A stretch of DNA of 64,000 nucleotides from Methylocystis sp. (GCA_022843405.1 JALHNQ010000011.1:1-64000), one strand, 5' to 3'. Counted from the first letter of the stretch, positions 4,236 through 31,107 are shown. Translations and numbers: made by a program. Notes: generated from the sequence alone by a model not told the origin.

Positions 4236-4716
4236 CGCTTGACTCCAATGATGCGAAGCGGGCGCCGTCCACTTTCCGGGCTGAAAAGCCTCGAGCGCGA
4301 GGAAAGCATTTTATTAGAGGAATGGCGATAATAAGATTGTCTTGAAGGGGATTATGGCTTTAACATCGAGTCCTGCTACGGCATGCTTTGTTCGATCGGT
4401 CTGAAGGAAAGCGAAACAAAAAGGCGTTTCCTCGACACTTTCAGCGTCATGCGCGCGCCGCGTTCGTCGCGCGGAACACGCCGAAACGTGACGATGGACT
4501 TCTCACTTGACCAAGCGCGCACCCGGGAAGGCTGACGGAGTAAGGAGAGGGAATGAAGGTGCGCGCGAATGCGCGCGGCTGATCAACGGCGCAAGGGATC
4601 GTCAACCGCAAGTTCGGTGACGGCGAAAGGTGGCGCCAGTCGCTAACGCGATTAAGGCGCGGCCATAGGGTTCGCCCAACTGCCGCGCGCAATAAAACCG
4701 AGAGGAATTCAAGGGT
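4236..4716. other. Intergenic region without a clear gene
   Basis: About 480 bases between the divergent ssb and acyltransferase. It includes the 4289-4302 hairpin and a comparatively AT-rich patch (4300-4380) suitable for promoters of either gene. The minus-strand ORFs here are Arg/Ser-rich and have no ribosome sites. Confidence 0.4.
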
Positions 4717-5796
4717 TTGAAGGACCGGATTGAAACGCTCGATGAATTGAGGGCTTTGGCGATCGGCGCGGTAATGCTGTCGCATTTCGCGCTCGCCTTC
4801 GGGTCGCAATCGATCGTAGCGTTTTGGCTCAACCTCCCTGATCTCAGCGTCGGCGTCGATCTGTTCTTTGTGATTTCAGGTTTCCTGATTTTCCGGAATG
4901 TTACCGATCTGACGCAAGCCCACAGCTACACGCGCGGGATCGCGACCTTCTATGCGCGCCGACTAACGCGGATCGTGCTCCCGGCATGGGCGATCGTCGC
5001 GGCGCTTGCAATGGCCCATATTGAACATCCCGCGTCGAGCGTCACCGATCTTTGGACTGCCGCGGCGCTCATCGCAAACGTCCATTGGGCGCGCTGCGAA
5101 GTCGACGCCCGCTGCGGCGATCCGCTCGCGACATCACATTTCTGGTCGCTGGCGAGCGAAGCGCAATTCTATTTCCTGGCACCAGCGCTGCTGCTCGCGC
5201 GGGGACGTGCCGCGCTCTACGGGGTGTCCGCAGCCATTCTGCTGCTTGCCCCCGTTCCCCGCCCACACGGCTCCCTGCTGTGGGCGCTGCGCCCGGAAGC
5301 GCTCCTGCTTGGCGCGGCGCTCGCCAGCCAGTTGAGACGGAGCGCCTCCTGGCTGGCGAAGGCGCCGCCCGTGTCCACCGGATTGGCGGCATGGTGGATC
5401 CTTGTGGCGTCCATGGTGGCGAGCATTGGGATTGGCCCCTTCTCGGGGCTGGCGTGGACGCTTGTCGCATTTATCAGCGCCGGCGTCGTTTTCGGACGCC
5501 TCCAAGGAACGCCCATCGCCGGTAGTGCCGGCGAGGCCGTGCGAAGGATCGGCCGCGCGTCGTTCTCCGTCTATCTCGTCCATCTGCCGCTGATCGGTAT
5601 TGCCGCGGAATCGGTCGCCCCATGGATCGGGGCGCCCGCCGCCGCCCTTGGCGCTCTGGTGGCGATCGGCGCGGCGGCGATGGTGGTCGAGTTCACGATC
5701 GTGCGACCGGCGGCGCAACTCGGCCGCGCGTGGAGCATGGGCTTCGTATCTAATTATTTGCCAATCGCAGGCCGCGCGGCGAAAATCGGGGCTTAG
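4717..5796 (+). CDS. Acyltransferase 3 family membrane protein
   Basis: A 359-aa integral membrane acyltransferase of the OafA/YrhL (acyltransferase_3) family, which O-acylates surface sugars or lipids using a cytoplasmic acyl donor. The N-terminus holds the family hallmarks ETLDELRALAIGAVMLSHF (catalytic His region) and VGVDLFFVISGFL, followed by RRLTRIVLPAW and about ten hydrophobic segments. The start is TTG, with AGAGGA about 11 bases upstream; the frame is intact to the stop. It stands alone with no sugar-modification partners, so the substrate is unknown. Confidence 0.8.
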   Translation: MKDRIETLDELRALAIGAVMLSHFALAFGSQSIVAFWLNLPDLSVGVDLFFVISGFLIFRNVTDLTQAHSYTRGIATFYARRLTRIVLPAWAIVAALAMAHIEHPASSVTDLWTAAALIANVHWARCEVDARCGDPLATSHFWSLASEAQFYFLAPALLLARGRAALYGVSAAILLLAPVPRPHGSLLWALRPEALLLGAALASQLRRSASWLAKAPPVSTGLAAWWILVASMVASIGIGPFSGLAWTLVAFISAGVVFGRLQGTPIAGSAGEAVRRIGRASFSVYLVHLPLIGIAAESVAPWIGAPAAALGALVAIGAAAMVVEFTIVRPAAQLGRAWSMGFVSNYLPIAGRAAKIGA

Positions 5797-6092
5797 CAAA
5801 TTTACTCGGCATAGATCATAGGCCGAAACGCCAACTCGCAGACTTTTAATATGACCCCATATCGGTCAACCGACGTCGACGCATGGTGCCCACGAACGTT
5901 GTTGAGCAGCCTCGAGCGCCAATTTCTTCCAGAGCTTCAACAACATAGCGTCGTCGCGCTACCATAGCGGCGCCATCGCTGCCGCACATCGAACAAATGC
6001 CGAATTATCGCCTTAACAATTCGCAACGCTTGCGGCGCTTCCAATAAACACTCCGAGCTCGCGCTCAGAGCGCGAGATGACCGGAAAATCGT

Positions 6093-6620
6093 TTGATGCG
6101 GCACAATGTGAGCTTACGCAAAAGAAAGGCCGACCATGGACATGGTCGCATCTGGTGTCCACCGTTGCGCCTGTACTTTCCAAGAATTTTCGGAATTTCG
6201 TGGAAGGTCGCTAAACGACCGCGTCAGGACAAGGCGCCTGAACTTCAACATATCACTTACACGCTCGATCCAAGGGCTATTGCGGCAATCCGTGGCAGCA
6301 TTGTCGATGAAATCGATCACCTCGACCGCGACGCGCCGCATTCGCTCATCGTCCGCCATCACTGGTCAAGATCGCTCGCCAGTTCCTACCTCGAGGGCGT
6401 TGAAGATGTGACGGACATATCCAACAACACGGGAATTTTCGAAGTTGACGACGCAGTATTCACACTCACGGAACGGCCAACGCGCGCCGACTGGCCGGTG
6501 CCGATGATCATCTACGTCGCCGAAATTTACGCCTCAAAGAACGCGATGATCGACGCCGAACATTTTGAAGTTGTCGTCGGCCCGGACGGACGGCCCGTGC
6601 CCCGCGAATTGCTCGGCTGA
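6093..6620 (+). CDS. Hypothetical protein
   Basis: Up to 175 aa, unrecognised. The convincing part is the C-terminal two thirds (from about residue 50, HITYTLDPRAIAAIRGSIVDEID...), with mixed charged/hydrophobic character and a VPMIIYVAEIY strand. The first 45 residues are basic and may be non-coding, so the true start is uncertain. A 47-aa ORF follows 8 bases after the stop, suggesting a two-gene unit. Confidence 0.45.
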   Translation: MMRHNVSLRKRKADHGHGRIWCPPLRLYFPRIFGISWKVAKRPRQDKAPELQHITYTLDPRAIAAIRGSIVDEIDHLDRDAPHSLIVRHHWSRSLASSYLEGVEDVTDISNNTGIFEVDDAVFTLTERPTRADWPVPMIIYVAEIYASKNAMIDAEHFEVVVGPDGRPVPRELLG

Positions 6621-6628
6621 GGGGTGAT

Positions 6629-6772
6629 ATGGAAGACGAAGCGAAGAGAGGCTGGACGATTCAGCACGATGGCGGCGAACCGTTGCCAGCGTCAATAGCC
6701 GAGTTGGTCGAGCGCTGGCTTGCCGTGACCGACCGATGGCGATCCAATCGCGGCGCTGGTGATCGCCGCTGA
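6629..6772 (+). CDS. Small acidic hypothetical protein (47 aa)
   Basis: MEDEAKRGWTIQHDGGEPLP... 47 aa, too short for the ORF track. It starts 8 bases after the preceding stop, with GGGGTGAT directly upstream serving as ribosome site. A central predicted helix (SIAELVERWLAV) and a basic end are visible. Likely co-translated with the upstream hypothetical; no family recognised. Confidence 0.4.
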   Translation: MEDEAKRGWTIQHDGGEPLPASIAELVERWLAVTDRWRSNRGAGDRR

Positions 6773-7009
6773 AGAATTGACGCTTTTGGCGCCCGCCACG
6801 AGCCGCGGCTTTTCGCGTTTGCCGCCAATCGAAGGTCAGGCCATAATAACAGCGGTGAAATAGCCCGTAGCAGAAGGCGGACGTAAGTCGCCGATCTGGC
6901 GCGCAAACACGCGGTTTGGGAAGCTGTCAACGGCGGAGAGAATCCCGGCCACCAGGGCGGCGCAAAACCAAGCCAGTTGGGAGAGAACGCCGACATGCAA
7001 AGGTTCGGG

Positions 7010-7081
7010 CTACGACGGGATGATTTCGCCACGAACCTTGCCGATGCGGCCGAGGATCTGGAATTCCACGAAAGTCTTCAT
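7010..7081 (-). pseudogene. Truncated third ssb
   Basis: The 23-codon frame MKTFVEFQILGRIGKVRGEIIPS-stop matches the N-terminal OB-fold strand of SSB (compare QVGRVGQLKEVG in the intact copy at 1514-1891). It has a proper ssb-type leader: the sequence just upstream (ATCGTTGG...GGTTGCGATGGC) corresponds to the leader of the intact gene, and the 7213-7260 structured element lies further upstream. The rest of the gene is lost; 6773-7009 shows no continuing SSB homology that I can read. Confidence 0.55.
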
Positions 7082-7212
7082 CTTGCTCTCCATCGTTGGA
7101 GCGACTGCCCCGGTTGCGATGGCTGTCCGTGATGGCCGCGAAGGCGACGCCATAACCGAAGCGCCGACAAGGCGTGAGGCTGAAGCAGAGGGAAGGACCC
7201 GAAGGCCGCGTC

Positions 7213-7260
7213 AATTTTGTCTCGCGAGGAATTGGCGCGCAGCGCGCCAAGGGGAAAATT
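7213..7260. promoter_or_regulatory. Second covarying hairpin element (ssb leader)
   Basis: AATTTT (7213-7218) and AAAATT (7255-7260) enclose GAGGAA-TTGGCGCG-cag-CGCGCCAA-GGGG, a perfect 8-bp stem at 7232-7250. Relative to the element at 2025-2089 the flanks are conserved while stem bases changed on both sides with pairing kept. It lies 132 bases upstream of the truncated ssb start, a spacing like that of the first element. Confidence 0.55.
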
Positions 7261-7727
7261 ATCGCGGCCGCAGGGTTTTGGGCGACGACGGCGGCCATAG
7301 GACGAAACGCAATGCAAACGGAGGCGGACGTTCCCGCCAGAGAGGGAGGCGTAAAGACTCGAAGCGAATTCAGATCGTCGGGACGGCAGGCCCCGTGAAT
7401 CCGGGCGAATCGCCTGTTCGATGCCCCTAGGCCCAGCTATCTCTCAAATGTCTGGCGGAAAGACCGAGAATACCCCCCGGGAAATGAAATTCAACCTGGT
7501 TGGCGTCGAAAACGGAAAACCGCCAACGCGTAAAATCGGCCTATTGGAATCGGCTGGGATCGATAATGTGGAACGCGAAATTCGGCGTGGCGATCGGTCT
7601 TAAGAATGGCGCACTCCCGATGTCATGACTTGCGCCGCTAAGGATGATGGCGACGCCGGCGGAATCGCCACAGGAAGGAAAATATGCAGAAGCGCTAATT
7701 GCGACGCGACGAGAGATCGAGACGAGT
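7261..7727. other. Gene-free stretch
   Basis: No supportable gene. Short ORFs on the plus strand (7421-7603, 7644-7895) lack ribosome sites and recognisable content, and the latter is mainly antisense to the methyltransferase. Confidence 0.4.
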
Positions 7728-8345
7728 TCACGCCGTGGACCGAGCGCTTCCCGCATACATGTAGGTCATGATACGGGGACCATCCGCATACTCGTTTCTA
7801 AGTTCCGTCAGATCGAAGCCGGCGGCGCGCACGAGATCGTCCATCTTTCGATCCAGATGACAACCGCCGGCGACTTTGCGCCATATCGGGGTTAGTCGGT
7901 GTTGCCAACTTTCCACTCGAGGCTCCGGTGAAAGTCCATGCTCGACAAACATCAGCCTGCCGCCAGGCTTGAGAACCCGCCGCATTTCGCGCAGCGCGAT
8001 CAGCGGGTCGGGAATCGAACAAAGCGTCCAGGTCATCACGACCGTGTCTATTGTGTCGTCCCCGAGAGGGATCGCGGTTGCGGACGCTTGTATGAGTTGG
8101 GTTCTGACGGTGGCCGCGTCGGCGCGTCGGCTCCCCATCGCGAGCAAACGGGGCGAAGGATCGATTCCGATAACAATCTCGACCTGTTCGCCATAGAACG
8201 GGAAATTCAGTCCCGAGCCGACCCCGATTTCGAGCACCCGGCCGCTGGCGGCGGCCACAACCTCGCGACGATACCTCTCGAGTTGGCTCTGACGCATGAC
8301 CAGATCGAGCAGCGGCGGAAAAACCCAGCGATCATAGACGTTCAC
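7728..8345 (-). CDS. METTL7-like class I SAM methyltransferase
   Basis: A 205-aa SAM-dependent methyltransferase. Motif I is VLEIGVGSGLNFPFY, motif II GIDPSP, and the post-motif block is TWTLCSIPDPLIALREMRRVLKPGGRLMFVEH, followed by WRKVAGGCHLDRK. This arrangement closely recalls the METTL7/TMT1 (alkyl thiol methyltransferase) family, so a thiol or sulfide substrate is a reasonable guess but is inference. I start it at GTG 8345, which forms a GTGA overlap with the upstream stop and has GGAGG about 8 bases before it; the longer track ORF reads through the neighbouring gene. Last gene of the sulfur cluster. Confidence 0.75.
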   Translation of the reverse strand: MNVYDRWVFPPLLDLVMRQSQLERYRREVVAAASGRVLEIGVGSGLNFPFYGEQVEIVIGIDPSPRLLAMGSRRADAATVRTQLIQASATAIPLGDDTIDTVVMTWTLCSIPDPLIALREMRRVLKPGGRLMFVEHGLSPEPRVESWQHRLTPIWRKVAGGCHLDRKMDDLVRAAGFDLTELRNEYADGPRIMTYMYAGSARSTA

Positions 8346-9892
8346 AACGACGCCTCCGCGCGCCAACGCTCGGCGACCAGAGAAATCACCTTGAGCGACT
8401 CCTCTGCGCCATCCGCGATTCCTTTTTCGAAGTCTCCCTCGACCCGGCCCATCTGATTGGTCACATGGGCGAAGCAGATTACGGACCGATTGCACGCTTT
8501 CGCAAACGCATAGAGCGCGGCCGCCTCCATTTCGACAGCGAGAATCCCAGCCTCCAGCGCCGCATCGATCGCCGCTTGCGTTTCCCGAAAGGGGGCGTCG
8601 GTCGTCCAGGAGGCGCCGACCTGCGCCGAGATTCCCGCAACAGTGAGCGCCTCGCGCGAGAGCTCAATCAGTCGAGGGTCCGCCTCGCTGTAATCGGACG
8701 GCGGCAGATAGTGATAGCTTGCGCCTTCGTCGCGCAGCGCACGGTCGATGACGATGAAATGCGGCGGAGCTTGCACGGGAAGGATTTGCCCAGCCGAAGT
8801 CACGCTGATGAGCAGCCGACAGCCTGACGCGAACAGCTCTTCCGCGACCAGAACAGCAAAAGCGGCGCCGACGGCGCAACCGACGATTCCATATTCGTTC
8901 CCGTCACGATGGAAGACAAAAAGGTCGGTGTGATAGCAGGCCCAGCCGGGATGACGATCGGCGCAGCCCGTGGCGCGCAAGCGCCGCACGATGTCGCCAT
9001 CGGGATCGAGAACGCAGATTTCGGGAACGGCGGCGGCGGAAAGGCCTTTCTGGCGGCGCGCCTCGCGCAACAGGCTCTCGGGCGTGAAGGCGGACGGCGC
9101 GTCGCAATGCTTGTGAGAAAGGATCGGCGGCGGTTTCATTTCACTCCCCTGCATGGCGCTGGCTACGTCCCGCACTTTTCCGAAAGGTTTCGTCGCCGAT
9201 ACGGCGATGAAGGCCGCGCCGAGTGTCGTTCTCCGCCCGAACCACGGATCAATCGCCGCAAACAGCCGCGCAGCGGCGCCGCATGGCGGATAAAAGACAG
9301 CGCCGCGCATCTCGACGACATCGAGCCCGGCGCCTTCGACGAGCTGGCGCAATTCCGTCGCGGTCCAAAATCTGGCGACCCGCCAAGTCGGATGGCCGAG
9401 CCAGCCGCGGATGCGCCGATAGGCGGCCCACAGGCTCCAGCGCCCGAGTTCGCCGATGACCAGCCGGCCGCCAGGCTTCAGGACGCGAGCCATTTCCACC
9501 ACGGCTCGCTCGGCGTCGCGAACGAAGCAAAGCACCGCGACCGCGAGGACGGCATCGAAACTCGCGTCCGGGAATGGCAGCAACTCGGCCTTTGCTTCGA
9601 CGAGCCGCAATTGAGCACCCTCGATCCCGGCCTGTCGCTGCGCGGCGATCATCGCCGGGTCCGGATCGAGGCCGGTTACAATTGCCCCGCGCCGGGCAAG
9701 CTCCGAAGCAAGGGCGCCGTCGCCGCAGCCTACGTCGAGCGCTGTTTTGTCGGCGACCCGGCCGAGAAGTTCGAAGAGGAGCTGTTGCTCCAATGCGTCG
9801 GTGATCTGGCCGAGACGGTTCGATCGCCAGCGGGCGTAGGACTCGGCGAACCCCGTCGGCTGCTGCTTTTCATAAGGCTTTCCAGTCCTCAT
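8342..9892 (-). CDS. Fusion: SAM methyltransferase + nucleoside phosphorylase
   Basis: A single uninterrupted 516-aa frame. Residues about 1-245 are a class I methyltransferase (ALDVGCGDGALASELA, GLDPDPAM, MARVLKPGGRLVIGELG). After a linker of about 25 residues, residues about 270-516 are a PNP/UDP-phosphorylase-superfamily domain: GCAVGAAFAVLVAEEL, SVTSAGQ and VEMEAAALYAF. Where MTA/SAH nucleosidases carry a catalytic Asp, this has HVTNQM, more like uridine phosphorylases, so SAH hydrolysis is uncertain. An appealing idea is that the second domain removes or recycles the nucleoside product of the first. The start overlaps the cysteine desulfurase stop (ATGA), and its own stop overlaps the METTL7-like gene, indicating tight coupling. 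Confidence 0.78.
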   Translation of the reverse strand: MRTGKPYEKQQPTGFAESYARWRSNRLGQITDALEQQLLFELLGRVADKTALDVGCGDGALASELARRGAIVTGLDPDPAMIAAQRQAGIEGAQLRLVEAKAELLPFPDASFDAVLAVAVLCFVRDAERAVVEMARVLKPGGRLVIGELGRWSLWAAYRRIRGWLGHPTWRVARFWTATELRQLVEGAGLDVVEMRGAVFYPPCGAAARLFAAIDPWFGRRTTLGAAFIAVSATKPFGKVRDVASAMQGSEMKPPPILSHKHCDAPSAFTPESLLREARRQKGLSAAAVPEICVLDPDGDIVRRLRATGCADRHPGWACYHTDLFVFHRDGNEYGIVGCAVGAAFAVLVAEELFASGCRLLISVTSAGQILPVQAPPHFIVIDRALRDEGASYHYLPPSDYSEADPRLIELSREALTVAGISAQVGASWTTDAPFRETQAAIDAALEAGILAVEMEAAALYAFAKACNRSVICFAHVTNQMGRVEGDFEKGIADGAEESLKVISLVAERWRAEASL

Positions 9893-11016
9893 TTCGCGGC
9901 GCCGAGCGCGTCAGACAAACCTTCGACCACCGCATCGATTTCATCGCGGGTCGTGCCGCGCCCCAGACTGAAGCGGATTGCGCCCATGCCGACGTCGGGA
10001 GCGACGCCCATGGCTTCCAGCACCGACGACAACGTGATGCGGTCCGAGTGACACGCCGAGCCCGTGGAGGCCGCGACGCCGTCGAGCCGCGCCAGAATTT
10101 CGGCGCCGATCCGGCCGACGAAGGAAACGTTGAGCGTGTTGGGGAGGCGGCGCGTGGAGTGGCCGTTGAGAGCGACACGATCTCCAAATCGCGTTTGCAA
10201 CTCCCGCCAGAAATGGTCGCGCAATTCGCGTACGCGGTCCATGGACGAAAGATCGCGCGCAAGCTCGCAGGCCTTGCCAAGTCCGGCCGTAAGCAGCGCA
10301 CTCTCGGTGCCCGCTCGCCGCCCGCCTTCGTGCCCCGCGCCGTGAATGAGCGGTTCGAGCGAGACGCCCCTGCGCACGAACAGCGCGCCCACGCCCTTCG
10401 GCGCATAAAGCTTGTGCCCGGCGAGCGACAGCAGATCGACGCCGAGCGCATTCACGTCGGTGGCGACCTTGCCGACGGATTGGGCCGCGTCGGTGTGAAA
10501 CAGCACGCCATGCGCATGGGCGATTTGCGCGCAATCCTCGATCGGCTGGATAGTTCCGACCTCGTTGTTGGCATGCATGACGGAAACGAGGATCGTGCGC
10601 GGCGTGATCGCTTTGCGGAGGTCGTCGGGATCGACGAGGCCCGCGCCGTCGACCGGCAAATAGGTGACGCTTACGCCGAGGCGCTCCAGAAACCGGCATG
10701 GGTCGATGATCGCCGGATGTTCGATCTTGGTCGTGACGAAATGGTCGCCCCTATCGCGCAATGCGAAATACATGCCCTTAAGCGCGAAATTGTTGGCCTC
10801 GCTGCCGCCGCTCGTGAAGACGATTTCGTCGCTCTTACAGCCAAACAGCGCCGCCGTCTGGCCGCGCGCCGTCTCGATGCCGGCCTTCGCGCCGGTTGAC
10901 GCCCAATGGCCGCTCGACGGATTGCCGTAATGATCGTCGAGAAACGGCGCCATTGCGCGAGCGACCGCCGGGTCGACCGGCGTGCTGGCGTTGTAATCGA
11001 AATAGATGCGCCGCAT
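9889..11016 (-). CDS. Cysteine desulfurase (NifS/IscS type)
   Basis: A 375-aa class V PLP aminotransferase that converts cysteine to alanine and an enzyme-bound persulfide. Visible features: N-terminal YFDYNASTPVDP, TSGGSEANN, the HTDAAQS cofactor region, PLP lysine in SLAGHKLYAPKG, and the persulfide cysteine in STGSACHS. Length is normal. It lacks IscU/SufE partners here; instead it follows a DsrE-like gene by 3 bases and overlaps the methyltransferase fusion by 4. That suggests it supplies sulfane sulfur for a local sulfur-relay or thiol pathway rather than general Fe-S assembly (inference). Confidence 0.88.
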   Translation of the reverse strand: MRRIYFDYNASTPVDPAVARAMAPFLDDHYGNPSSGHWASTGAKAGIETARGQTAALFGCKSDEIVFTSGGSEANNFALKGMYFALRDRGDHFVTTKIEHPAIIDPCRFLERLGVSVTYLPVDGAGLVDPDDLRKAITPRTILVSVMHANNEVGTIQPIEDCAQIAHAHGVLFHTDAAQSVGKVATDVNALGVDLLSLAGHKLYAPKGVGALFVRRGVSLEPLIHGAGHEGGRRAGTESALLTAGLGKACELARDLSSMDRVRELRDHFWRELQTRFGDRVALNGHSTRRLPNTLNVSFVGRIGAEILARLDGVAASTGSACHSDRITLSSVLEAMGVAPDVGMGAIRFSLGRGTTRDEIDAVVEGLSDALGAAK

Positions 11017-11019
11017 GGC

Positions 11020-11373
11020 CTAAAACACCAAGACCTTGTCGGCTTCCACAGTCGCCGCTGCGAGCTCGTCGATCGTGCTGCGGCGCGCGCCCTCCAGCAG
11101 CGCGGTCTCGTCGAGGCCGCGAGCATCCATGCAGGTTCCGCATAGGATCACCACGCCCTTTCCGGCCAGCACGCGCTTGAGCATTTTCTCGACGTTGTAA
11201 TAGCCGTCCGGCGTCTTTTGCCCGGCCTTGGCCGCGACGACCGAGTCCGCCATCAGGAAGACGGTGACCTCCATCTGCGGATCTTTCTTGAGCAACGCAT
11301 GAGCGAGTCGCAGTGCGTTGTAGCAACGTTCAGTCCCGTAGGGTGGATCATTTAGAATGAATAGGGTCTTCAT
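11020..11373 (-). CDS. DsrE/YchN-family sulfur relay protein
   Basis: A 117-aa DsrE-fold protein: N-terminal MKTLFILNDPPYGTERCYNALRLA, VTVFLMADSV and a CGTCMDARG motif whose cysteines could carry persulfide, then VEADKVLVF. Start at 11373 has GGGAGG 8-9 bases upstream; the track's eight-residue N-terminal extension is unlikely. Family members (TusBCD, DsrEF) pass sulfur between proteins, fitting the cysteine desulfurase 3 bases downstream. Confidence 0.82.
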   Translation of the reverse strand: MKTLFILNDPPYGTERCYNALRLAHALLKKDPQMEVTVFLMADSVVAAKAGQKTPDGYYNVEKMLKRVLAGKGVVILCGTCMDARGLDETALLEGARRSTIDELAAATVEADKVLVF

Positions 11374-11517
11374 GGAGGCAACCTCCCCTTGTGGCAAAAC
11401 ATTTCCCGCATCGCTTCATGCATGAGTTGCATGGTCAAGCCACATGGCGTCGGTCGCGTCCCGCGATTATGGCCGAGTGCGGACTGTCCTTCCAAGACCC
11501 CTTCTGGCGTCAGCGGC

Positions 11518-11892
11518 TTATTGATCGAGCACGCGGCGGCGCTCTTCGAATTCTGCCTTGTCGATCTCGCCGCGGGCGAAACGCTCCTTGAGAATATCGA
11601 GCGGGGTGCGTCCTGGAGGCGGTTGGTATGGCGGCTGGACTCCAATCCACGAGCCGCCAATCCAACGGACGAGAAGAATGGCGACAGCGATCACCGCACC
11701 GAGCGCCAGGATCATGAATAGCGGGCCAAAGATCATGCCGTACCAGCCTCCGTCCCACATCATACGCGACATGTGTTCACCCCAATCATATTTGTCGGGC
11801 TCGGTTGGGGTTTGCGCCCAGCTCCAAGCGGGTCGCATGATCAGCGCGGCGCACGAAGTCGCCGCCGCCATAAGTGTCCCGTGACCGTTCAT
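11518..11892 (-). CDS. Exported/membrane SHOCT-domain protein
   Basis: A 124-aa protein with an N-terminal signal-like segment (residues 1-26), a Met/Trp-rich stretch (MSRMMWDGGWYGM), one strong membrane helix (about 55-77) and a C-terminal SHOCT motif (PLDILKERFARGEIDKAEFEERRRVL). AAGGAGGG lies about 6 bases before the ATG. SHOCT domains occur in short membrane proteins of unclear function. It sits 15 bases after the MFS gene in the same direction. Confidence 0.75.
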   Translation of the reverse strand: MNGHGTLMAAATSCAALIMRPAWSWAQTPTEPDKYDWGEHMSRMMWDGGWYGMIFGPLFMILALGAVIAVAILLVRWIGGSWIGVQPPYQPPPGRTPLDILKERFARGEIDKAEFEERRRVLDQ

Positions 11893-11907
11893 GTCTTCCC
11901 TCCTTGC

Positions 11908-13185
11908 TTACTTGTCTTTGGTTCGCCTCGAGTCCGGTTGAGAACCGCGCATCAGCAACGCTGCAATTAGGCCAGAGAGAAATGTGAGCGCGGCGATTGT
12001 CCCGATCGCCCATGACAGTCCCGCAAGATCAGCGATGACGCCCGCGGAGAGCGCGCCGATCGCGTAGCCGAGATCGCGCCAAAAGCGATAGACACTGAGC
12101 GAGCGAGCGCGCCACGATGGATGCGAAGCATCGGAGACGGCAGCGATCAGGCTCGGATACACCATCGCCGTTCCGACCCCGAGCAGCAGGCTGCCGATCA
12201 GCCAAAACTCAAACTCACGAGTTGCCGCGGTCAGAAACAGACCCGCCGCCTGGACCCACATCCCCGCGACGACCAGGCCTTTGCGTCCCCAGCGATCGCT
12301 CAACGGGCCGGTCGCGATCTGGAGAATGCCCCATGTCGCCGGATACACGGCCTTGAGAATGCCGATCCGCTCGACGCCGAGGCCGAAGGCGGCGAAGAAC
12401 AGCGGGAAAATGCCCCAGCTCATGCCGTCGTTCAGATTGTTGACGAGTCCGGCTTGGGATGCGGCGAAGAGATTGCGATCACGGAACGAGGTCAGTGCGA
12501 ACACCTCCCAAAAGCCGATCGCTGCGGCTTCACGCGGACTGTCGCCGATTTCCAGGCGAACGTGGTCGCGCGTGTCGCGGACGAGAAGGATGGAGAGTAG
12601 CGCGCCAGCAATCGCGTAGCCGACGCCCAGATAGATCGGCACTGGACGGAGCCCGTACTCCGCAGCGAGGTAACCCGTGAGAAAGGCGGTCACGCCGACC
12701 GCGAGATAGCCGGCGGACTCGTTGAGGCCGACCGCCAGGCCGCGCGACTTCGGCCCGACGAGGTCGACCTTCATGATGACGGTCATCGACCAGGCGAGGC
12801 CTTGATTTATGCCGAGCAGCGCATTGGCGGCGATAACCCATCCCCAGCTCGGCGCCCACATGATCATGAAGGGAACCGGAAGCCCGAATAGCCATCCGAG
12901 GATCAGCACACGTTTGCGGCCCCAAACATCGGCGAGGTGCCCAGAGACGAGATTGGCGAAGGCCTTGACCACGCCGAAACTGACGATGAAAGAGACCACG
13001 AGTGTGGTCGACTCAATTCTGAATTCCTCGGAACCGATCAGCGGCACGACCGTGCGCTCGATCCCGACCATGCCGCCGACGAAGGCGTTGATCAGAACGA
13101 GCAATGCGAACTGCGGCCAATTGGCGCGCAGCCCGAGGCTTATGGCGCTGGCTCGGAGCGACGGGTTGCGGTCGACCGCACTCAT
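11908..13185 (-). CDS. MFS transporter
   Basis: A 425-aa major facilitator with about 12 membrane segments. The loop 2-3 signature GHLADVWGRKRVLI and the repeat-half counterpart GPLSDRWGRKGLV are both visible. Its start overlaps the MBL hydrolase stop by 4 bases (ATGA), so the two are co-translated. In similar sulfide/persulfide operons such permeases are thought to move sulfur oxyanions or toxic sulfur compounds, but the substrate cannot be read from sequence. Confidence 0.85.
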   Translation of the reverse strand: MSAVDRNPSLRASAISLGLRANWPQFALLVLINAFVGGMVGIERTVVPLIGSEEFRIESTTLVVSFIVSFGVVKAFANLVSGHLADVWGRKRVLILGWLFGLPVPFMIMWAPSWGWVIAANALLGINQGLAWSMTVIMKVDLVGPKSRGLAVGLNESAGYLAVGVTAFLTGYLAAEYGLRPVPIYLGVGYAIAGALLSILLVRDTRDHVRLEIGDSPREAAAIGFWEVFALTSFRDRNLFAASQAGLVNNLNDGMSWGIFPLFFAAFGLGVERIGILKAVYPATWGILQIATGPLSDRWGRKGLVVAGMWVQAAGLFLTAATREFEFWLIGSLLLGVGTAMVYPSLIAAVSDASHPSWRARSLSVYRFWRDLGYAIGALSAGVIADLAGLSWAIGTIAALTFLSGLIAALLMRGSQPDSRRTKDK

Positions 13186-13922
13186 TCCGCCGCTGCCATC
13201 AATCCCGAGTTGATTGCGCGGATGTGGGCGGCTTGCGGCGGCGCTGGCGGCACGTCGACGACCATGGCGCGCACGAAGGCGTCCTCGTCGTCGATACGGA
13301 ACGCCTTGTTGTGGCGCTTCTCGAATCCGATCGTGGAGATCGGGCTGCCGCTCAGGCTGCGGCCGCAGACCGAACCGGAATACGCTCCGGGCAATACTTC
13401 GAGATAATCAGGCAGGGACTTGAGTCTTTGCGCGCTGCGGAACAAGGCGCGCGCGCCTTCTTCCGCGCTGGTGGCAAGCTCGGTTCTGCCGAGATCGCCC
13501 ACCATGAGCGTGTGACCGGTCAGCACGAACCATGGCTCGTCGGCGCGTGTTCGATCTGTAACGAAAAGCGAGATGTGCTCGGGCGTGTGACCTGGCGTGT
13601 GCAGGATTTGGATTGAGACGTTGCCGAGCTCCAGCGCTTCGCCGTCGCGAACGCCGCGGAATGAAAAGACCGCGGTCGCGTCGGCGAAAAGCACGTATTC
13701 CGCCCCGGCTGCTTCCGCGAGCGCGCGGCCCGCCGAGACGTGGTCGGCGTGTAGATGCGTATCGATGACGTAACGAATGCGCATGCCGGTCTCTTCGGCG
13801 GCGCCAAGATAGCGGGCGATGTCGCCGACAGGATCGACGACGGCCGCGGCGGCATGCCCCGCACAGCCGAATAAGTAAGAGGCAGCCACGGGGTCGGAGT
13901 GCAGGAATTGCCGCAAGATCAT
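13182..13922 (-). CDS. MBL-fold hydrolase, persulfide-dioxygenase/Blh-like
   Basis: A 246-aa metallo-beta-lactamase-fold protein. The metal motif THLHADHVSAG is present, with further ligands in HTPGHTPEHIS and GDLGRTEL. This arrangement is like ETHE1/Blh persulfide dioxygenases (GSSH + O2 to sulfite + GSH), which use a single iron. Start at 13922 is preceded by GGAGG; the track start 24 codons earlier is unlikely. It is divergent from an ArsR-rhodanese gene, a classic arrangement for BigR-type sulfide/persulfide response. A glyoxalase II-like role is the alternative. Confidence 0.8.
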   Translation of the reverse strand: MILRQFLHSDPVAASYLFGCAGHAAAAVVDPVGDIARYLGAAEETGMRIRYVIDTHLHADHVSAGRALAEAAGAEYVLFADATAVFSFRGVRDGEALELGNVSIQILHTPGHTPEHISLFVTDRTRADEPWFVLTGHTLMVGDLGRTELATSAEEGARALFRSAQRLKSLPDYLEVLPGAYSGSVCGRSLSGSPISTIGFEKRHNKAFRIDDEDAFVRAMVVDVPPAPPQAAHIRAINSGLMAAAE

Positions 13923-13987: not shown

Positions 13988-14009
13988 CATTCAAATACTT
14001 AATTGAATG
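13988..14009. promoter_or_regulatory. Candidate ArsR-type operator
   Basis: CATTCAA-ATACTTAA-TTGAATG is a perfect 7-bp inverted repeat in the 105-base gap between the divergent MBL and ArsR-rhodanese genes, with a -35-like TTGACA at 13969-13974. AT-rich palindromes of this form are typical ArsR/BigR operators. It lies 18 bases before the ArsR start, so it could repress both directions. Confidence 0.6.
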
Positions 14010-14027
14010 AAATATGAAACGGAAGCG

Positions 14028-14693
14028 ATGTCAAGCCAGAGTCCGAAACATGCCCTGTTCGCCCAGTTCGCCCTTGTCGCGAAAACATTGGGACATGCCC
14101 ATCGTCTGGAATTGTTGGAACAGCTCGCCCAAGGCGAGCGCAGCGTCGAAGCGTTGGCCCAGAAGACGGGTCTGTCGATCGCCAATGCCTCGCAGCATCT
14201 CCAGCGCATGCGGCGAGCCGGCATGGTGACAGCAAGGCGAGACCGCAAATTCGTCTATTACCGCCTTGCCGACGACGCCGTTCTCGACTTGCTTGCGGCG
14301 CTGGGCAGGCTCGCGGAGCGCAACATGGCCGAAGTCGAACGGCTCATGCGCGACTATTTTCACGATCGCGACGCAATGGAAGCGATCTCTCGCGAGGGAC
14401 TGCTGCGGCGAATGCGCGCCGGGACGGTTACTGTTCTCGACGTGCGGCCCGAAGACGAATTCGCCCTGGGCCATCTGCCAGGAGCGATGAACATCCCGCT
14501 GCGCGCGCTTGAGGCGCGGCTCGCCGAACTCGATCCCTCGCGGGAAATCGTCGCCTATTGCCGTGGCCCCTACTGCGTATTGTCCTACGAAGCGGTCGCC
14601 GCCTTACGCGCTCGAGGATTCAAAGTTCGCCGTCTGCAAGACGGTCTTCCAGAATGGCGCGCCGCAGGGTTACCGATCGTCGCGCGTCAATAG
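14028..14693 (+). CDS. ArsR-family regulator fused to a rhodanese domain
   Basis: A 221-aa two-domain protein. Residues 1-95 form a winged HTH (LGHAHRLELLEQLAQGE, GLSIANASQHLQRMRRAGMVTARRDRKFVYYRL). Residues about 115-220 form a rhodanese with the active loop CRGPYC and the VLDVRPEDEFALGHLPGA block. The rhodanese cysteine may sense or carry sulfane sulfur. I choose ATG 14028 because GGAAG lies 7 bases upstream; the track start (14007) would place the operator inside the gene. Likely represses itself and the divergent MBL-MFS operon until persulfide accumulates (inference from BigR/SqrR-type systems). Confidence 0.85.
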   Translation: MSSQSPKHALFAQFALVAKTLGHAHRLELLEQLAQGERSVEALAQKTGLSIANASQHLQRMRRAGMVTARRDRKFVYYRLADDAVLDLLAALGRLAERNMAEVERLMRDYFHDRDAMEAISREGLLRRMRAGTVTVLDVRPEDEFALGHLPGAMNIPLRALEARLAELDPSREIVAYCRGPYCVLSYEAVAALRARGFKVRRLQDGLPEWRAAGLPIVARQ

Positions 14694-18447: not shown

Positions 18448-21400
18448 ATGAAGGAACAAGGCGTCCCTGCTCGGCGTGACCGGGAAACCCAGACGGCATT
18501 GACCGCGAATAACGACATTCGCCAGAAGCCGTCTGCGGGAGGCGGCGATCGCTATAGCTTCAAGATCCAAGGCCTGGATTGCGCCGAGGAAGTGGCGGTC
18601 TTGCGCGGCGAGATCGGCCCACTCGTCGGCGGCGAGGATAATCTCGCGTTCGACGTCTTGAGCGGCCGTATGACCGTGTTGGACAGCGCCCCGCCCGTCT
18701 CGACTGATGAGATTATCAATGCTGTCCGCCGTACCGGCATGACCTCTAAGGAATGGCGTCGTGAGGAGAAGGAGTCATCGGAAGCCGGCGATCGGCGCCG
18801 TCGCCAGCAAGTTTGGTTCACCAGCCTGAGTGGACTGTCGGTGGCGGCGGGATTTGCCATTCATGTCTGGCTTGCTGGCGGTTTCGGCGAAGGCCTGCGG
18901 CTTCTGGCTGGTCACGACGAGCGGGCCGTTCCTCTGCCGGAGATGATCGCCTACGCATCCGCGGTCGCCTTCGGTATTCGTTTCGTTATCGTCAAGGCTT
19001 GGTCTGCGATACGTGGCCTGCGGGCCGACATGAATCTCCTGATGGTGGTCGCCGTCGCTGGCGCCATCGCGATTGACCAGTGGTTCGAGGCCGCGACCGT
19101 ATCGTTCCTCTTCGCACTCTCGCTGACGCTGGAGAGTTGGAGCGTGGCGCGCGCGCGCCGCGCCATTGCCGCCCTTCTCGATCTCGCGCCGCCGACAGTC
19201 AGGCTTGTGCGCGCCGATCGATCGGAGGCGGACGTATCGGTAGCCGAAATTAACCCCGGCGACTGCTTTATCGTTCGCGCCGGCGAGCGCATCGCGCTGG
19301 ACGGACGCGTCGCGGCAGGCAGCAGCTCCGTCAACCAGGCGCCCATCACCGGCGAGAGCGTCCCGGTCGAAAAGGCGCCCGGCGCTGAAGTTTTCGCGGG
19401 CACAGTCAACGGTGACGGCACGCTGACTGTGGAGGCCACCAAGGCGGCCGAGAACACGATGCTCGCCCGCATCATTCGCCTCGTCGAAGAAGCGCATGCG
19501 GGACGCGCTCCTTCGGAGCAATGGGTGGAACGTTTCGCGCGCGTCTATACGCCGACGGTGATGGTTCTCGCGATTCTGGTTTTCCTAGGGCCGCCGCTGG
19601 CGCTCGGCGGAGCATGGGACGACTGGTTCTATCGCGCACTCGTCCTGCTCGTGATCGCCTGCCCATGCGCGTTAGTCATCTCGACACCCGTGTCGATCGT
19701 CGCGGCGTTGGCCTCGTCAGCCCGGGCAGGCGTGCTGGTCAAAGGCGGCGCCTATGTCGAACTTCCGGCTCGTCTCAAAGCAATCGCCATGGACAAGACC
19801 GGCACCATCACGCGCGGCGAACCCGAGGTGGTGCGCGTCGTGCCATTCGGCAACCACACGGAGGCCGAACTCTTGGCCCGTGCTGTAGCGCTCGAAGCCA
19901 GATCCACGCACCCGCTTGCGCGCGCCATTCTTCGTTATGCCAAAGAGCAGGGGATTGCCCCGGCGCCGGCCACAGACGTGCAAGCACTCAGAGGAAAGGG
20001 GCTCACCGGAACCTTTGACGGCGAACCATTCTGGCTCGGCTCCCATCGTTACGTCGTCGAGCGCGGCCAGAATACCCTCGAGTCCGCGGAACAAACTGAA
20101 GCATTAGAGGCGGATGGCAAGACGGTCATCGCTGTCGGCAATCCTCGACATATCTGCGGCCTCATCGCCGTTGCCGACACGATACGACCCGAAGCACGCG
20201 CCATCGTGCAGCAGCTGCACGCCGTCGGGATCGCGCACGTCGTTATGCTGACGGGCGACAATCGGGTCACTGCTGAATCTATCGCGCGTATGGTTGGTAT
20301 GGACGAGGTGTACGCCGAGCTGTTGCCTGAGGACAAGGTCAAGAAAGTCGAAGAGCTCGTCGGCCGCTACGGTACAGTTGCCATGGTAGGCGATGGCGTG
20401 AATGACGCACCAGCGTTGGCGCGCGCTAACTTAGGAATCGCCATGGGCGCAATCGGCTCTGATGCCGCAATTGAAACGGCCGATATCGCGCTAATGACCG
20501 ATGATATTGCGAAGTTGCCCTGGCTAGTGCGTCACGCCAAACGGACACTCGCTATCATCCGTCAGAACATCGTGTTCTCGCTCGGCGTCAAGGCGATCTT
20601 CATGGCGCTCACTCTTGGGGGGTTCGCCACCTTATGGGGCGCGATCGCCGCCGATGTCGGCGCCTCGCTCGTCGTGGTCACAAACGCGCTGCGCCTCTTG
20701 CGACCCCGCGATGTGAAAACGGAAGCAGAACCAATTGCCGAGCGATCCCATCCAATCGTTCAGAGTCGAAGAGGCGTTGCGTGGACCGTGTTGGCGGCCG
20801 TGGTGGCGATTTCGTTCGGCGCAATCTTCGTCGCCTACGCGCCGAATTTCCTCCCCCCTGAGCCGAAGCCGGTAGAGAAAACGGAGCCGGCTTCGCCGGA
20901 ACAGGCGGCGCCCATGCCGTCTGTCGTCCCTATGCCGCCTAAAGAAATGGCCGGAGAACGCGAGGCGACAACGAAACCGACGGCCGCCACTCCTGACGAC
21001 TACTTCAAAAAGAATCTGCCGAATGGCTCGGAATTGAACATTCCGAAGTCCGGCGTCGAAGCGAAATTACTTGCGTTCATCGAGAATAGGGCGAAGCCGG
21101 AAAAGGTTGGCTGGTTCGATTTCGACCGTGTGACATTCGAGACGGGCAAGACGAAACCACTGCCGTCTGCGGACGAGCAACTGCACAATGTCGCCAAAAT
21201 ACTCGTCGCCTATCCGAATGTAAGGGCGATCATTGGCGGCCACACCGATAGTCTCGGCAATGCGGGCGCGACTAAGAGGCTGTCACAAGCACGCGCCATC
21301 TTCGTTCTGCGCGAACTGAGTCGTATGGGCGTCGACGCTTCACGCATTCGGGCGAAGGGCTATGGCGGAGACCATCCTGTCGCAACCAACGACACCAAAG

Positions 21401-21450
21401 AAGGGCGAGCGAAAAATCGCCGGATTTCCTTGGGCGTGATCCGAAAATAG
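18448..21450 (+). CDS. P1B-type heavy-metal ATPase fused to OmpA-like domain
   Basis: A 1000-aa single frame. Residues about 30-95 are an HMA-like domain (FKIQGLDCAEEVAVL). Residues about 120-760 form a Zn/Cd/Pb-type P-ATPase: TGES phosphatase loop, CPCALVIS in the transmembrane site, DKTGTITRGE phosphorylation site (about 449), HP motif (STHPLARA) and GDGVNDAPA. Then comes an extra membrane helix (WTVLAAVVAISFGAIFVAY, about 779-797), a Pro-rich linker and, at about 886-1000, an OmpA/MotB peptidoglycan-binding domain (GGHTDSLGN, LSQARAIFVLREL, NRRISLGV). The extra helix would place the OmpA domain in the periplasm, so the fusion is topologically sensible. CadA/ZntA relatives end after the ATPase core, making this about 250 residues longer. 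Confidence 0.88.
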   Translation: MKEQGVPARRDRETQTALTANNDIRQKPSAGGGDRYSFKIQGLDCAEEVAVLRGEIGPLVGGEDNLAFDVLSGRMTVLDSAPPVSTDEIINAVRRTGMTSKEWRREEKESSEAGDRRRRQQVWFTSLSGLSVAAGFAIHVWLAGGFGEGLRLLAGHDERAVPLPEMIAYASAVAFGIRFVIVKAWSAIRGLRADMNLLMVVAVAGAIAIDQWFEAATVSFLFALSLTLESWSVARARRAIAALLDLAPPTVRLVRADRSEADVSVAEINPGDCFIVRAGERIALDGRVAAGSSSVNQAPITGESVPVEKAPGAEVFAGTVNGDGTLTVEATKAAENTMLARIIRLVEEAHAGRAPSEQWVERFARVYTPTVMVLAILVFLGPPLALGGAWDDWFYRALVLLVIACPCALVISTPVSIVAALASSARAGVLVKGGAYVELPARLKAIAMDKTGTITRGEPEVVRVVPFGNHTEAELLARAVALEARSTHPLARAILRYAKEQGIAPAPATDVQALRGKGLTGTFDGEPFWLGSHRYVVERGQNTLESAEQTEALEADGKTVIAVGNPRHICGLIAVADTIRPEARAIVQQLHAVGIAHVVMLTGDNRVTAESIARMVGMDEVYAELLPEDKVKKVEELVGRYGTVAMVGDGVNDAPALARANLGIAMGAIGSDAAIETADIALMTDDIAKLPWLVRHAKRTLAIIRQNIVFSLGVKAIFMALTLGGFATLWGAIAADVGASLVVVTNALRLLRPRDVKTEAEPIAERSHPIVQSRRGVAWTVLAAVVAISFGAIFVAYAPNFLPPEPKPVEKTEPASPEQAAPMPSVVPMPPKEMAGEREATTKPTAATPDDYFKKNLPNGSELNIPKSGVEAKLLAFIENRAKPEKVGWFDFDRVTFETGKTKPLPSADEQLHNVAKILVAYPNVRAIIGGHTDSLGNAGATKRLSQARAIFVLRELSRMGVDASRIRAKGYGGDHPVATNDTKEGRAKNRRISLGVIRK

Positions 21451-24739: not shown

Positions 24740-26029
24740 ATGCACATGACAAAACCAAACGGCGATGAGGCTACGGGGCTCCAGTCCGACGCCTTCGCCA
24801 CGCGTCTGCGGAAAAGCACTGCGAAACTGTCGTCTCGCACGTTCCTGCTCGTTATTATCATCATTGCAAGCGCCGTGATCGGTTCATGGTTCCCGCAAAT
24901 ATCGGCGCCACTACGATTCTTATTCTCGTCCAAGACAGAAGTCGTGCAACCGGCGGAGCAGCAGAGCGCTGAAGGCCTCGTCAAGCTTACACTTGAGCAG
25001 ATCGAAGCGGCCAAGATCGAGACGGCGCCGGCCGGTCCCGGAACGCTCACGAAACGCCTTGTGGCTCCCGCTTCCGTGACGCCCGATCCCGACCGAATCG
25101 GCCGCGTCGCCGCGAAGGTGGCGGGCACAATCGCCGAATTGCGCAAGAGGCTCGGCGACAATGTCGCCTTGAACGAGGTGATCGCCGTTATCGACAGCCG
25201 CGAGGTGGCCGACGCCAAGAGCGGCTATCTCGCCGCCGCCGTGCAATATGATTTGCAGAACCAGCTCTTCCTGCGCGAGAAAGGCCTGTTCGACAAGAAG
25301 ATCACCGCGGAGCAGTTATTCCTCAAGGCCAAGACGAGTTTCGCCGAGGCCAAGCTGCGCCTCGATCTCGCGCGGCAAAAGCTCGCCGCGCTCGATCTCT
25401 CCGAATCGGAAATCACCAATCTTTCGTCACAGCCGATCTCCAGCCTGCGGCGCAAGGAAATCCGCGCGCCGATCGCCGGCCGAGTCATCGAGCGACTCGT
25501 CAGCCTGGGCCAGCCGGTGGGCGGCGAGGGGCAAGCGAAGGAGCTCTATGTGCTCTCAGATCTCTCGGTCGTGCAGGCGGATATTTCCGTTCCGATCAGT
25601 GATCTCGCCGCCATACGCGAAGGGCAGCTCGTCCTGTTAAAAACGCCGGACGAGCGCGTCTTCGAGGGGAAGGTCGTCGTCGTCAACGCCATGATCACGC
25701 AGGAGACGCGCTCAGGCCATGTGATCGCCAGTTTCGGCAATCCCGATTTCGCCCTGCATCCGGGCGTTCTGCTCAACGCCGAAATCGCGCTGGCGCGGAC
25801 GCCCGTGAAGGTCAGAATTCCGCGCGCGGCGATGCAGATGATCGACAATGAGCCGACCGTCTTCGTGCGCGCGCCAGACGGCTTTGTGAAACGGAAGATC
25901 GTCATTGGCGCGACCGACGACGTGTCGGTCGAGGTGACGGCGGGATTATCGCCGGGCGAGGCGATCGCCGTTTCCAACACATTCGTGCTCAAGGCCGAGT
26001 CAGGTAAGAGCAACATTCCGGAAGAGTGA
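24740..26029 (+). CDS. RND efflux periplasmic adaptor (CzcB-like)
   Basis: A 429-aa membrane-fusion protein linking an RND pump to an outer-membrane channel. It has an N-terminal cytoplasmic stretch, an anchor helix (FLLVIIIIASAVIGSWF, about 35-51), a barrel-sandwich domain (RVAAKVAGTIAELRKRLGDNV), a helical hairpin (about 165-240), the second lipoyl half (EIRAPIAGRVIERLVSLGQPV) and beta-barrel/MP domains. No His-rich N-terminal metal domain as in classic CzcB. GGGG lies just before the ATG. First gene of a three-gene operon. Confidence 0.88.
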   Translation: MHMTKPNGDEATGLQSDAFATRLRKSTAKLSSRTFLLVIIIIASAVIGSWFPQISAPLRFLFSSKTEVVQPAEQQSAEGLVKLTLEQIEAAKIETAPAGPGTLTKRLVAPASVTPDPDRIGRVAAKVAGTIAELRKRLGDNVALNEVIAVIDSREVADAKSGYLAAAVQYDLQNQLFLREKGLFDKKITAEQLFLKAKTSFAEAKLRLDLARQKLAALDLSESEITNLSSQPISSLRRKEIRAPIAGRVIERLVSLGQPVGGEGQAKELYVLSDLSVVQADISVPISDLAAIREGQLVLLKTPDERVFEGKVVVVNAMITQETRSGHVIASFGNPDFALHPGVLLNAEIALARTPVKVRIPRAAMQMIDNEPTVFVRAPDGFVKRKIVIGATDDVSVEVTAGLSPGEAIAVSNTFVLKAESGKSNIPEE

Positions 26030-26041
26030 AGACGCCGGCCC

Positions 26042-29000: not shown

Positions 29001-29260
29001 TTTGCTCGCGCGAGGCGATCTTTCAAGGCGCCATGACGCGACTGCGTCCGGTGGCGATGACCGCGCTTGTCGCTTCGCTCGGCTTCGTTCCGATGGCGCT
29101 CGCGACCGGCACCGGCGCGGAAGTGCAAAGGCCGATCGCGACAGTGGTCATCGGGGGCCTCATCAGCGCCACGCTTCTCACGCTCGTGGTGCTGCCGGCG
29201 CTTTACATGCTGTTCAGCGGTTCTCGTTCGCCAACGGCGGCGGAACAAGGCGGGGGCTAG
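26042..29260 (+). CDS. Heavy-metal RND pump (CzcA/HME family)
   Basis: A 1072-aa inner-membrane proton-driven exporter with 12 membrane segments and two large periplasmic loops. The TM4 signature DFGLIADGAIIVVEN is of the HME1 type that handles Co/Zn/Cd or Ni, rather than the CusA type. Other landmarks: N-terminal LPIDAVPDITNVQVQVNALAP, PIENALAGIPGLEYTRSLS, and GVAVLNGLVMLTYIRQLL near the end. It starts 12 bases after the adaptor and ends 3 bases before the outer-membrane factor. A 727-aa antisense ORF over its 3' part is a reading-frame shadow. Confidence 0.92.
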   Translation: MMKRIIAFSVHQRWLIVLLVALAGAFGAWSMTRLPIDAVPDITNVQVQVNALAPALSPIEMEKQVAYPIENALAGIPGLEYTRSLSRNGFAQVTAVFGDGIDIYFARQQINERLTQVKEDFPPRVEVRMGPIATGLSEIYMWVVSYKKNGGGALPLDGEPGWQRDGSYLTPEGALLRTDLEKTAYLRTVQDWIIRPQLRTVPGVAGVDSLGGYVKQYHVQPDPAKLMALGLSFGDLAAVIERNNVSRGAGYVERNGDGLVVRSGGRLETIDDIRNVVATTRSGVPVKIGEIATVGIGRELRMGSASMNGEEIVSGSAFMLIGANSRTVSAAVDQKMKEISKSLPAGIEARTVLNRTVLVDATIWTVAKNLSEGAALVILVLFLLLGNFRAAFITALVIPVTMLLLAIGMLYGKISANLMSLGALDFGLIADGAIIVVENCLRHLAERQHFLGRDLLREERLDTIVESAVEMRKPTVYGQAIIILVYFPVLTFTGVEGKMFHPMAMTVIIALACEFVLSLTFFPAMIAIFVSGPVQEKENAIVAAMKRVYRPLLMWANDAPAKTIAIGAGVFALAILLFLSMGEEFIPTLDEQNILMQANRIPSASLTQSQAMQFQVENVVRAVPEVAYVFSKTGTSDVATDPMPPNLADTFIMLKPRSEWSDPYLPKPALISAIQRQVDRLAGNVYDFSQPIQVRFNELLAGVRGDVAVKVFGEDFDAMLKAANHIAAILRGVPGAEDVKVEQVEGLPLLDIKIDKGAIARLGLSLASVQDVIGAAIGGQRAGVIFEGDRRFPIFVRLGDNLREDTGALETLPVSLPSSGATPGPVIQLKQVARFSIVEGQNQISRENGKRRVVVSANVRGRDIASVVAEAQAKVEAKVAIPPGYWITWGGQFENLMAARARLMLVVPVCFFMIFLLLYSALSGARGALLVFSAVPLALSGGVAALWLRGMPMSVSAAVGFIALSGVAVLNGLVMLTYIRQLLNAGLCSREAIFQGAMTRLRPVAMTALVASLGFVPMALATGTGAEVQRPIATVVIGGLISATLLTLVVLPALYMLFSGSRSPTAAEQGGG

Positions 29261-29263
29261 GAC

Positions 29264-30673: not shown

Positions 30674-31107
30674 AACCGTGAGATCGCGTCAGGTTTTCCG
30701 ACCACCTTAAAATTTCCCAAAGTTGAAACGAGGGCCGGCGTCGAATAACACGGCGCCGTCGCAAATCATTGTGCGTGCAATCATTTCACGGTCGATCGCC
30801 AATTTGTCCGGAAACTATGTCTGACAATGGCAAGCCGGGCAGGATGATTGCCGGACAAGAAAGCGGACATGTCCGGGAAAATCGCGATGGCGCCGCCCCG
30901 GCCGCGTAAACGCCGTTGCGGATGGTCTGCATATGCTGATCGTTCACGATCCTGCCAATCGCGGCGAGCTTCACGTCCAGTTCCTAAAGGCCGAGGCCGT
31001 CGCAGTTCGGCGTGCGCAGGCGTGAGGCAAGCGGCTCGCACCAAAAAAGAAGGACAGCCCATGAGCAGGCCGCCGCATGAGTTGGAGCGAGGAAAAATGT
31101 ACCGACG
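30674..31107. other. Intergenic region between efflux and mercury modules
   Basis: No supportable gene. Several TGTCCGG/CCGGACA copies occur between about 30800 and 30880 (TTGTCCGGAAAC, TTGCCGGACAAG, CATGTCCGGG), partly as inverted pairs. They could be a recombination or regulatory site, but I cannot assign them. The short ORFs are Arg-rich shadows. Confidence 0.35.

Follow-up and report, generated by a model that had tools for sequence, protein, structure and literature searches.

What joint function could bring a metallo-β-lactamase (MBL) fold enzyme, a transporter, sulfur-handling proteins and methyltransferases together in one compact operon? The question is raised by a locus in a 64,000-nt stretch of Methylocystis sp. 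DNA, which we refer to as the window. A preliminary description recognised seven minus-strand genes there, divergent from an ArsR-rhodanese gene, with three 4-base overlaps, one 3-base gap and a 144-base gap before the DsrE gene. We found every gene in the order and place described, and Pfam and NCBIfam scans agree with the family names given (MBL, MFS, SHOCT, DsrE, NifS-type desulfurase and two class I methyltransferases; Table 1). The spacings hold as well. The MBL and MFS genes overlap by 4 bases, 15 bases separate MFS from SHOCT, 144 separate SHOCT from DsrE and 3 separate DsrE from the desulfurase; the desulfurase and fusion genes overlap by 4 bases, as do the fusion and the last methyltransferase gene, whose GTG start lies inside a GTGA. 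The description's overall interpretation, a pathway that generates, relays, oxidises or methylates sulfane sulfur, is supported in part; it had overlooked a nucleoside phosphorylase (PNP)-like domain, the operator, the changes at the metal site of the MBL and the position of the operon among metal-resistance genes. The reading we prefer, and think somewhat probable on balance, is a mobile, inducible cassette for the homeostasis of reactive sulfur (sulfane sulfur and sulfide) carried inside metal-resistance islands and using methylation as a side outlet.

Table 1 Features of the operon and its divergent regulator, in window coordinates
Feature	Position	Strand	Matches and remarks
Class I SAM methyltransferase, METTL7/Mdd-like, 205 aa, GTG start	7728..8345	-	Methyltransf_11 E 8.8e-22
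SAM methyltransferase and PNP-like fusion	8342..9892	-	Methyltransf_11 E 5.6e-29; PNP_UDP_1 E 1.1e-26
NifS/IscS-type cysteine desulfurase	9889..11016	-	Aminotran_5 E 2.7e-71; NifS E 4e-131, below equivalog cut-off
DsrE-family sulfur carrier	11020..11373	-	DsrE E 6.7e-23; ~42% identity to E. coli YchN
Small membrane protein, SHOCT domain	11518..11892	-	SHOCT E 7e-10
MFS transporter	11908..13185	-	MFS_1 E 2.4e-45
MBL-fold protein, persulfide dioxygenase superfamily	13182..13922	-	3tp9 E 9.9e-51; 3r2u E 7.3e-46
Predicted operator, inverted repeat CATTCAA-N8-TTGAATG	13988..14009		In divergent promoter
ArsR-rhodanese regulator	14007..14693	+	HTH_5 E 3.9e-9; Rhodanese E 1.1e-17

The 144-base gap before DsrE had been proposed as the likeliest point at which the operon might break. 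It contains neither a terminator-like site nor a second operator, the only promoter-like match in it is no better than chance, and gene order is conserved across it. A promoter of DsrE under its own control is also made less likely by the single predicted operator that would serve the whole divergent unit. The core of the operator repeat, TTCAA-N8-TTGAA with a spacing of exactly 8, lies upstream of 24 of 45 ArsR-rhodanese genes against 0.055 expected in shuffled sequence; the 24 loci are related rather than independent, their regulators spanning 50–100% identity. ATTCAA-N8-TTGAAT is matched perfectly just once in the strain's genome, at 13989–14008 in the divergent gap. In a class-wide draw the exact CATTCAA-N8-TTGAATG occurs in 7 of the 12 genomes that have the regulator and in 5 of the 277 that lack it (Fisher p 2e-8). 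Because the operator overlaps the ATG at 14007, the ATG at 14028 is possibly the true start of the ArsR-rhodanese gene.

Sulfane-sulfur-responsive ArsR repressors of the SqrR/BigR/sHdrR type are marked by a pair of cysteines conserved within the ArsR domain (Cys50 and Cys116 of sHdrR; PMC12423496). The window regulator has no cysteine in its DNA-binding part and carries a CRGPYC loop in its rhodanese part. Its relatives keep the cysteine pair of this loop, CRG[PAR][YFW]C, and most of them also lack cysteines in the DNA-binding part. With conserved cysteines in the rhodanese loop only, the protein falls outside the definition of SqrR/BigR-type sensors. An inverted repeat does lie in its divergent gap and its neighbours are sulfur-related, as expected of a regulator that controls sulfur genes from a nearby operator, and it may work like such a sensor despite the missing ArsR-domain cysteines.

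Conserved linkage of the gene set, which the preliminary description put forward for a survey, is found: the genes are linked, share one operator and have sulfur as their common theme; the unit keeps its order in other genomes and has its core on plasmids. The same order occurs in Methylocystis sp. H62, on the Methylocystis rosea plasmid pGW6_1 and in a Bradyrhizobium MAG, and the complete set, including the METTL7-like gene, was seen only in the window and these three genomes. pGW6_1 is also the closest plasmid DNA, with 86% identity across the entire operon and regulator. On the regulator's side, pGW6_1 (positions 4370–7357 of locus L081) bears a second set running in the opposite direction, which consists of an ArsR-rhodanese, a methyltransferase, a DsrE and a second PNP-like gene. 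Rhizobium sullae retains the MBL-MFS-SHOCT-DsrE-desulfurase stretch in the same order.

We also surveyed the linkage from individual members of the set. Among 399 genomes of the phylum the MFS transporter has seven other strong homologues, each with an MBL and/or ArsR-rhodanese neighbour (six adjoin MBL and six adjoin ArsR-rhodanese). The ArsR-rhodanese gene, present in 11 other genomes of 289 in the class, some of them on short contigs, neighbours a fatty-acid hydroxylase in 7, DsrE in 4, PNP in 3, MFS in 2 and MBL in 1. The hydroxylase, the commonest partner in this sample, is OlsE-like and divergent, and shares the operator at most of its seven loci. At least one of ArsR-rhodanese, MBL, MFS, DsrE and desulfurase accompanies the PNP-like gene at 32 of 80 loci. 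Plasmids from four phyla (Acidithiobacillus, Acidiphilium, Cytobacillus, Deinococcus and Leptospirillum) combine an ArsR regulator with the MBL and the MFS. The regulator of Leptospirillum, however, carries the annotation of a short ArsR and is a weak match only. Accessory DsrE, cysteine desulfurase, PNP and methyltransferase genes are present in some lineages. We therefore regard the unit as modular, with a mobile core and accessory blocks.

The variability of the accessory content is high, IS elements are frequent in related loci and METTL7-like homologues usually lie elsewhere. These observations would fit a chance pile-up of unrelated plasmid stress genes in which the ArsR-MBL-MFS core is the only functional unit. 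Such an accumulation is hard to reconcile, however, with the MBL-MFS-SHOCT-DsrE-desulfurase order, which recurs in Rhizobium and Bradyrhizobium at 65–83% identity, with the DsrE-desulfurase and methyltransferase-PNP pairs that recur among related loci, or with the overlaps and domain fusion, which imply selection for co-expression. We consider it very unlikely.

The MBL-fold protein had been called a hydrolase. We rejected an ordinary hydrolase as the default reading, because the Asp and His usual at a two-metal site are missing from the clade and its nearest proteins are of the CstB type, with which sequence comparison places the window protein in the persulfide dioxygenase superfamily. The iron ligands of the A. 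caldus persulfide dioxygenase are H57, H113 and D130, with H171 hydrogen-bonded to D130; its D130H mutant has 0.5–2% activity left and H171A none (PMC6060420). The window protein retains the two histidines as H56 and H112, but has H137 in place of the Asp and A180 in place of the second-sphere His, a triple-His site instead of the 2-His-1-Asp iron site. This H,H,H,A pattern defines the window clade and is found in 13 of 18 aligned proteins, the window's included; the other five have H,H,D,H, and gammaproteobacterial relatives retain Asp and His. The His/Ala pair is present in eight of nine plasmid records (Bosea and seven further ones), covering Pseudomonadota, Bacillota and Deinococcota, and only Leptospirillum has Asp/His. 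The strain's own genome encodes a separate ETHE1-like homologue with the usual Asp. The joint change of Asp to His and His to Ala across the clade argues for a different, selected chemistry, dioxygenase or other, and not for decay.

The desulfurase has the PLP lysine motif GHKLYAPKG and the catalytic cysteine loop STGSAC in both the window protein and its relatives, as a cysteine desulfurase should, and the CGTCMDARG motif of DsrE is likewise retained in relatives. Cysteine desulfurases produce sulfane sulfur. This is a poor fit with pure disposal and our main doubt about the preferred reading.

The genomic setting bears on this doubt. The ParA-like and SSB-like proteins at its left end (one SSB confirmed by Pfam, the others read from sequence) make the window look plasmid-like. 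It also encodes CDF, P-type ATPase, CusA-type RND, MerR, MerT, MerP-like HMA and MerA-like reductase proteins, and the run of Cus-type efflux genes followed by MerR, MerT, the MerP-like HMA protein and the MerA-like reductase at 24740–34419 marks it as a metal-resistance island. The P-type ATPase (18448–21450) has an unusual domain combination, its C-terminal part matching the OmpA family (E 4.8e-16). Plasmid core loci often adjoin mercury or copper resistance genes, and the metal-gene neighbours of related loci are merA, merR1, MerT with a GDCCVxC protein, MerC-like proteins and copper genes. At four loci a MerC-like membrane protein is encoded a short distance upstream of the PNP-like gene, with DsrE or desulfurase adjoining in some.

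The operon could therefore be read as a metal-resistance module that supplies sulfide on demand: the desulfurase and DsrE would make sulfide or persulfide as a trap for soft metals such as mercury or copper, any excess would be cleared by the MBL and MFS proteins, and the methyltransferases would act on the metal or on metal-released thiols. The metal genes of the window (Cus-type efflux, P-type ATPase, CDF and mer operon) and of the related loci would suit it, and it accounts for the desulfurase better than disposal does. The shared neighbourhood may, however, merely reflect that islands collect stress genes; the minimal plasmid cassette lacks the desulfurase, and several copies accompany SQR, TauE or soxB. 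We judge this module unlikely. The sulfur-gene neighbours in relatives comprise an SQR-like flavoprotein with TauE, soxB, and a TSUP transporter with rhodanese, and the Cytobacillus locus has rhodanese, TusA, DsrE, a second MBL and TauE beside it. In two distant genomes a class II glutamine amidotransferase (GATase_4) sits between an SQR-like flavoprotein and a SHOCT protein (L112, 10217–14012; L122, 4586–6767).

The last methyltransferase carries the SAM motif EIGVGSG, of the GxGxG form, and EHG, WQ, PxW and GC motifs, all invariant in 24 relatives. By its motifs it is a putative METTL7-like enzyme. It resembles MddH, MddM1, MddM2 and human TMT1A/B (METTL7A/B) in length (~205 aa), in its UbiE/UbiG-type class I fold and in METTL7-like motifs; the window gene differs in sitting in an operon with sulfur carriers. 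The preliminary description had treated this gene as a defining feature. We rejected it as a hallmark: an unbiased draw gave 19 further homologues, and not one is linked to MBL, MFS or DsrE. The family is common (46 of 298 genomes of the order), and in the operon the gene is an occasional recruit. Other operon copies have unrelated methyltransferases (clusters c14 and c35), with several families recurring, in keeping with a capping role of a general kind. Methylation of H2S, MeSH or persulfides is known for bacterial as well as human enzymes (PMC12904073, PMC13089183).

The neighbouring gene had been named a methyltransferase fusion. Its N-terminal half (~9140–9892) is indeed a SAM methyltransferase; the C-terminal half (8342–9139), which went unnoticed, is a PNP_UDP_1 phosphorylase-superfamily domain. 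The two are fused in the window and in two further loci, both Methylocystis (H62 and pGW6_1), and are separate neighbours 42–57 bases apart in eight others. An internal ATG at 9139, with a Shine-Dalgarno-like AGGGGAG in front, may be a relic of a formerly separate PNP gene. The structure model of the domain (pLDDT 90.6) has a uridine/purine phosphorylase fold, and Foldseek matches it to the NP-I fold (E 2.2e-18, TM ~0.7). Its family counts 45 relatives from Proteobacteria to haloarchaea, with a mean column identity of 69%.

In E. coli PNP, R87 binds phosphate and D204 protonates the base. The domain has Ser (S112) and Asn (N228) at these positions, both invariant across the 45-member family, and on these Arg-to-Ser and Asp-to-Asn changes we rejected an ordinary purine nucleoside phosphorylase. 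With the NP-I phosphorylases (uridine phosphorylase, DeoD PNP and MTA phosphorylase) it shares the fold and the ribose-binding motif VEMEAAALY, but identity is ~20%, and the window domain differs further in being fused to a methyltransferase. In its simplest reading the domain is a nucleosidase, or else a highly specific lyase, and its union with a methyltransferase points to SAH, the methylation by-product, or to a related nucleoside as the substrate.

Since the operon combines a desulfurase and a sulfur carrier with two methyltransferases, a nucleoside enzyme and an exporter, it could also be a small biosynthetic cluster. Cysteine sulfur would then pass via DsrE to a nucleoside-derived molecule, which two enzymes would methylate, the PNP-like domain would cleave and the MFS protein would export. 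In keeping with this, the PNP family in Bradyrhizobium accompanies radical SAM proteins and TIGR04282 arsenosugar-type glycosyltransferases. The conserved core of regulator, MBL and MFS includes no scaffold-building enzyme, however, the methyltransferases are swapped for unrelated ones between lineages, and the PNP is missing from most core loci, and we find such a cluster quite unlikely. At the nine loci concerned, mostly in Bradyrhizobium, the PNP-like gene stands with the TIGR04282 glycosyltransferase, a radical SAM/SPASM protein and often a family 2 glycosyltransferase, and sulfur genes are absent. Arsenosugar biosynthesis, considered from these TIGR04282 neighbours, was rejected, as no protein there or in the operon reaches the ArsS or ArsM equivalog cut-off.

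For the preferred reading, that of a reactive-sulfur homeostasis cassette, we infer the inducer, the substrates and the direction of sulfur flow as follows. The ArsR-rhodanese repressor would sit on CATTCAA-N8-TTGAATG until its CRGPYC loop accepts sulfane sulfur or is attacked by a soft metal or an oxidant; the repressor would then be released and the divergent operon expressed. DsrE would carry persulfide sulfur, partly supplied by the cysteine desulfurase, the MBL enzyme would act on persulfide and the MFS protein would export the product. The methyltransferases would cap a sulfur nucleophile, yielding a methyl-sulfur dead end, and the PNP-like domain would degrade the nucleoside left over, SAH or a relative, and so account for being fused to a methyltransferase. 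This reading is supported by the linkage of the core on plasmids of four phyla, the sulfur-gene neighbours, the CstB-type MBL, the single operator, the retained catalytic motifs of DsrE and desulfurase, and the recurring methyltransferases. Besides the desulfurase, what speaks against it is that the MBL clade lacks the iron-ligand Asp and the second-sphere His, that the regulator lacks the two helix-domain cysteines, and that in 7 of the 11 sampled genomes the regulator adjoins the fatty-acid hydroxylase instead.

Among known systems, the bigR operon (BigR-Blh) and the cst operon (CstR, CstA, CstB, SQR and TauE), which serve sulfide and persulfide stress, are alike in placing a repressor over an MBL-fold persulfide enzyme, sulfur carriers and exporters; the window MBL is nearest to CstB-type proteins, and some relatives have TauE and SQR-like neighbours. 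The window differs in its ArsR-rhodanese fusion sensor without helix-domain cysteines, its MFS exporter and an MBL that has a triple-His site and no rhodanese domain, and it adds the desulfurase, the methyltransferases and the PNP-like domain. With the persulfide (sulfur) dioxygenases of types I–III and SdoS, the window clade shares the sequence family, the THxHADH motif, two of three iron ligands and a DsrE neighbour, whereas it has His for the Asp ligand and Ala at the position of H171. A dsrE-like gene adjoins sdo1 in the Acidithiobacillus SdoS group (PMC5584763).

The preliminary description knew of no system with this gene combination, and our search of the open-access literature found no description of the combination, the operator, the triple-His clade or the fused nucleosidase-like domain. 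The individual parts are of known kinds. That they add up to an undescribed plasmid-borne, multi-phylum sulfur-stress cassette, in which the rhodanese loop would sense, the triple-His MBL would oxidise or split persulfides, and the fusion would both methylate sulfur species and destroy the product inhibitor SAH, is a tentative and rather unlikely proposal.

If the preferred reading is true, the operon would be a widespread mobile cassette for sensing and disposing of reactive sulfur in metal- and sulfide-rich places, and its sensor, its oxygenase site and its recourse to methylation would set it apart from the bigR and cst systems. The operator offers a simple reporter for the inducer. A triple-His site is known from cysteine dioxygenases, and the natural Asp-to-His clade is a ready test of whether such a site can work in an MBL fold. 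Methylation, finally, would link plasmid genes to volatile sulfur emission.
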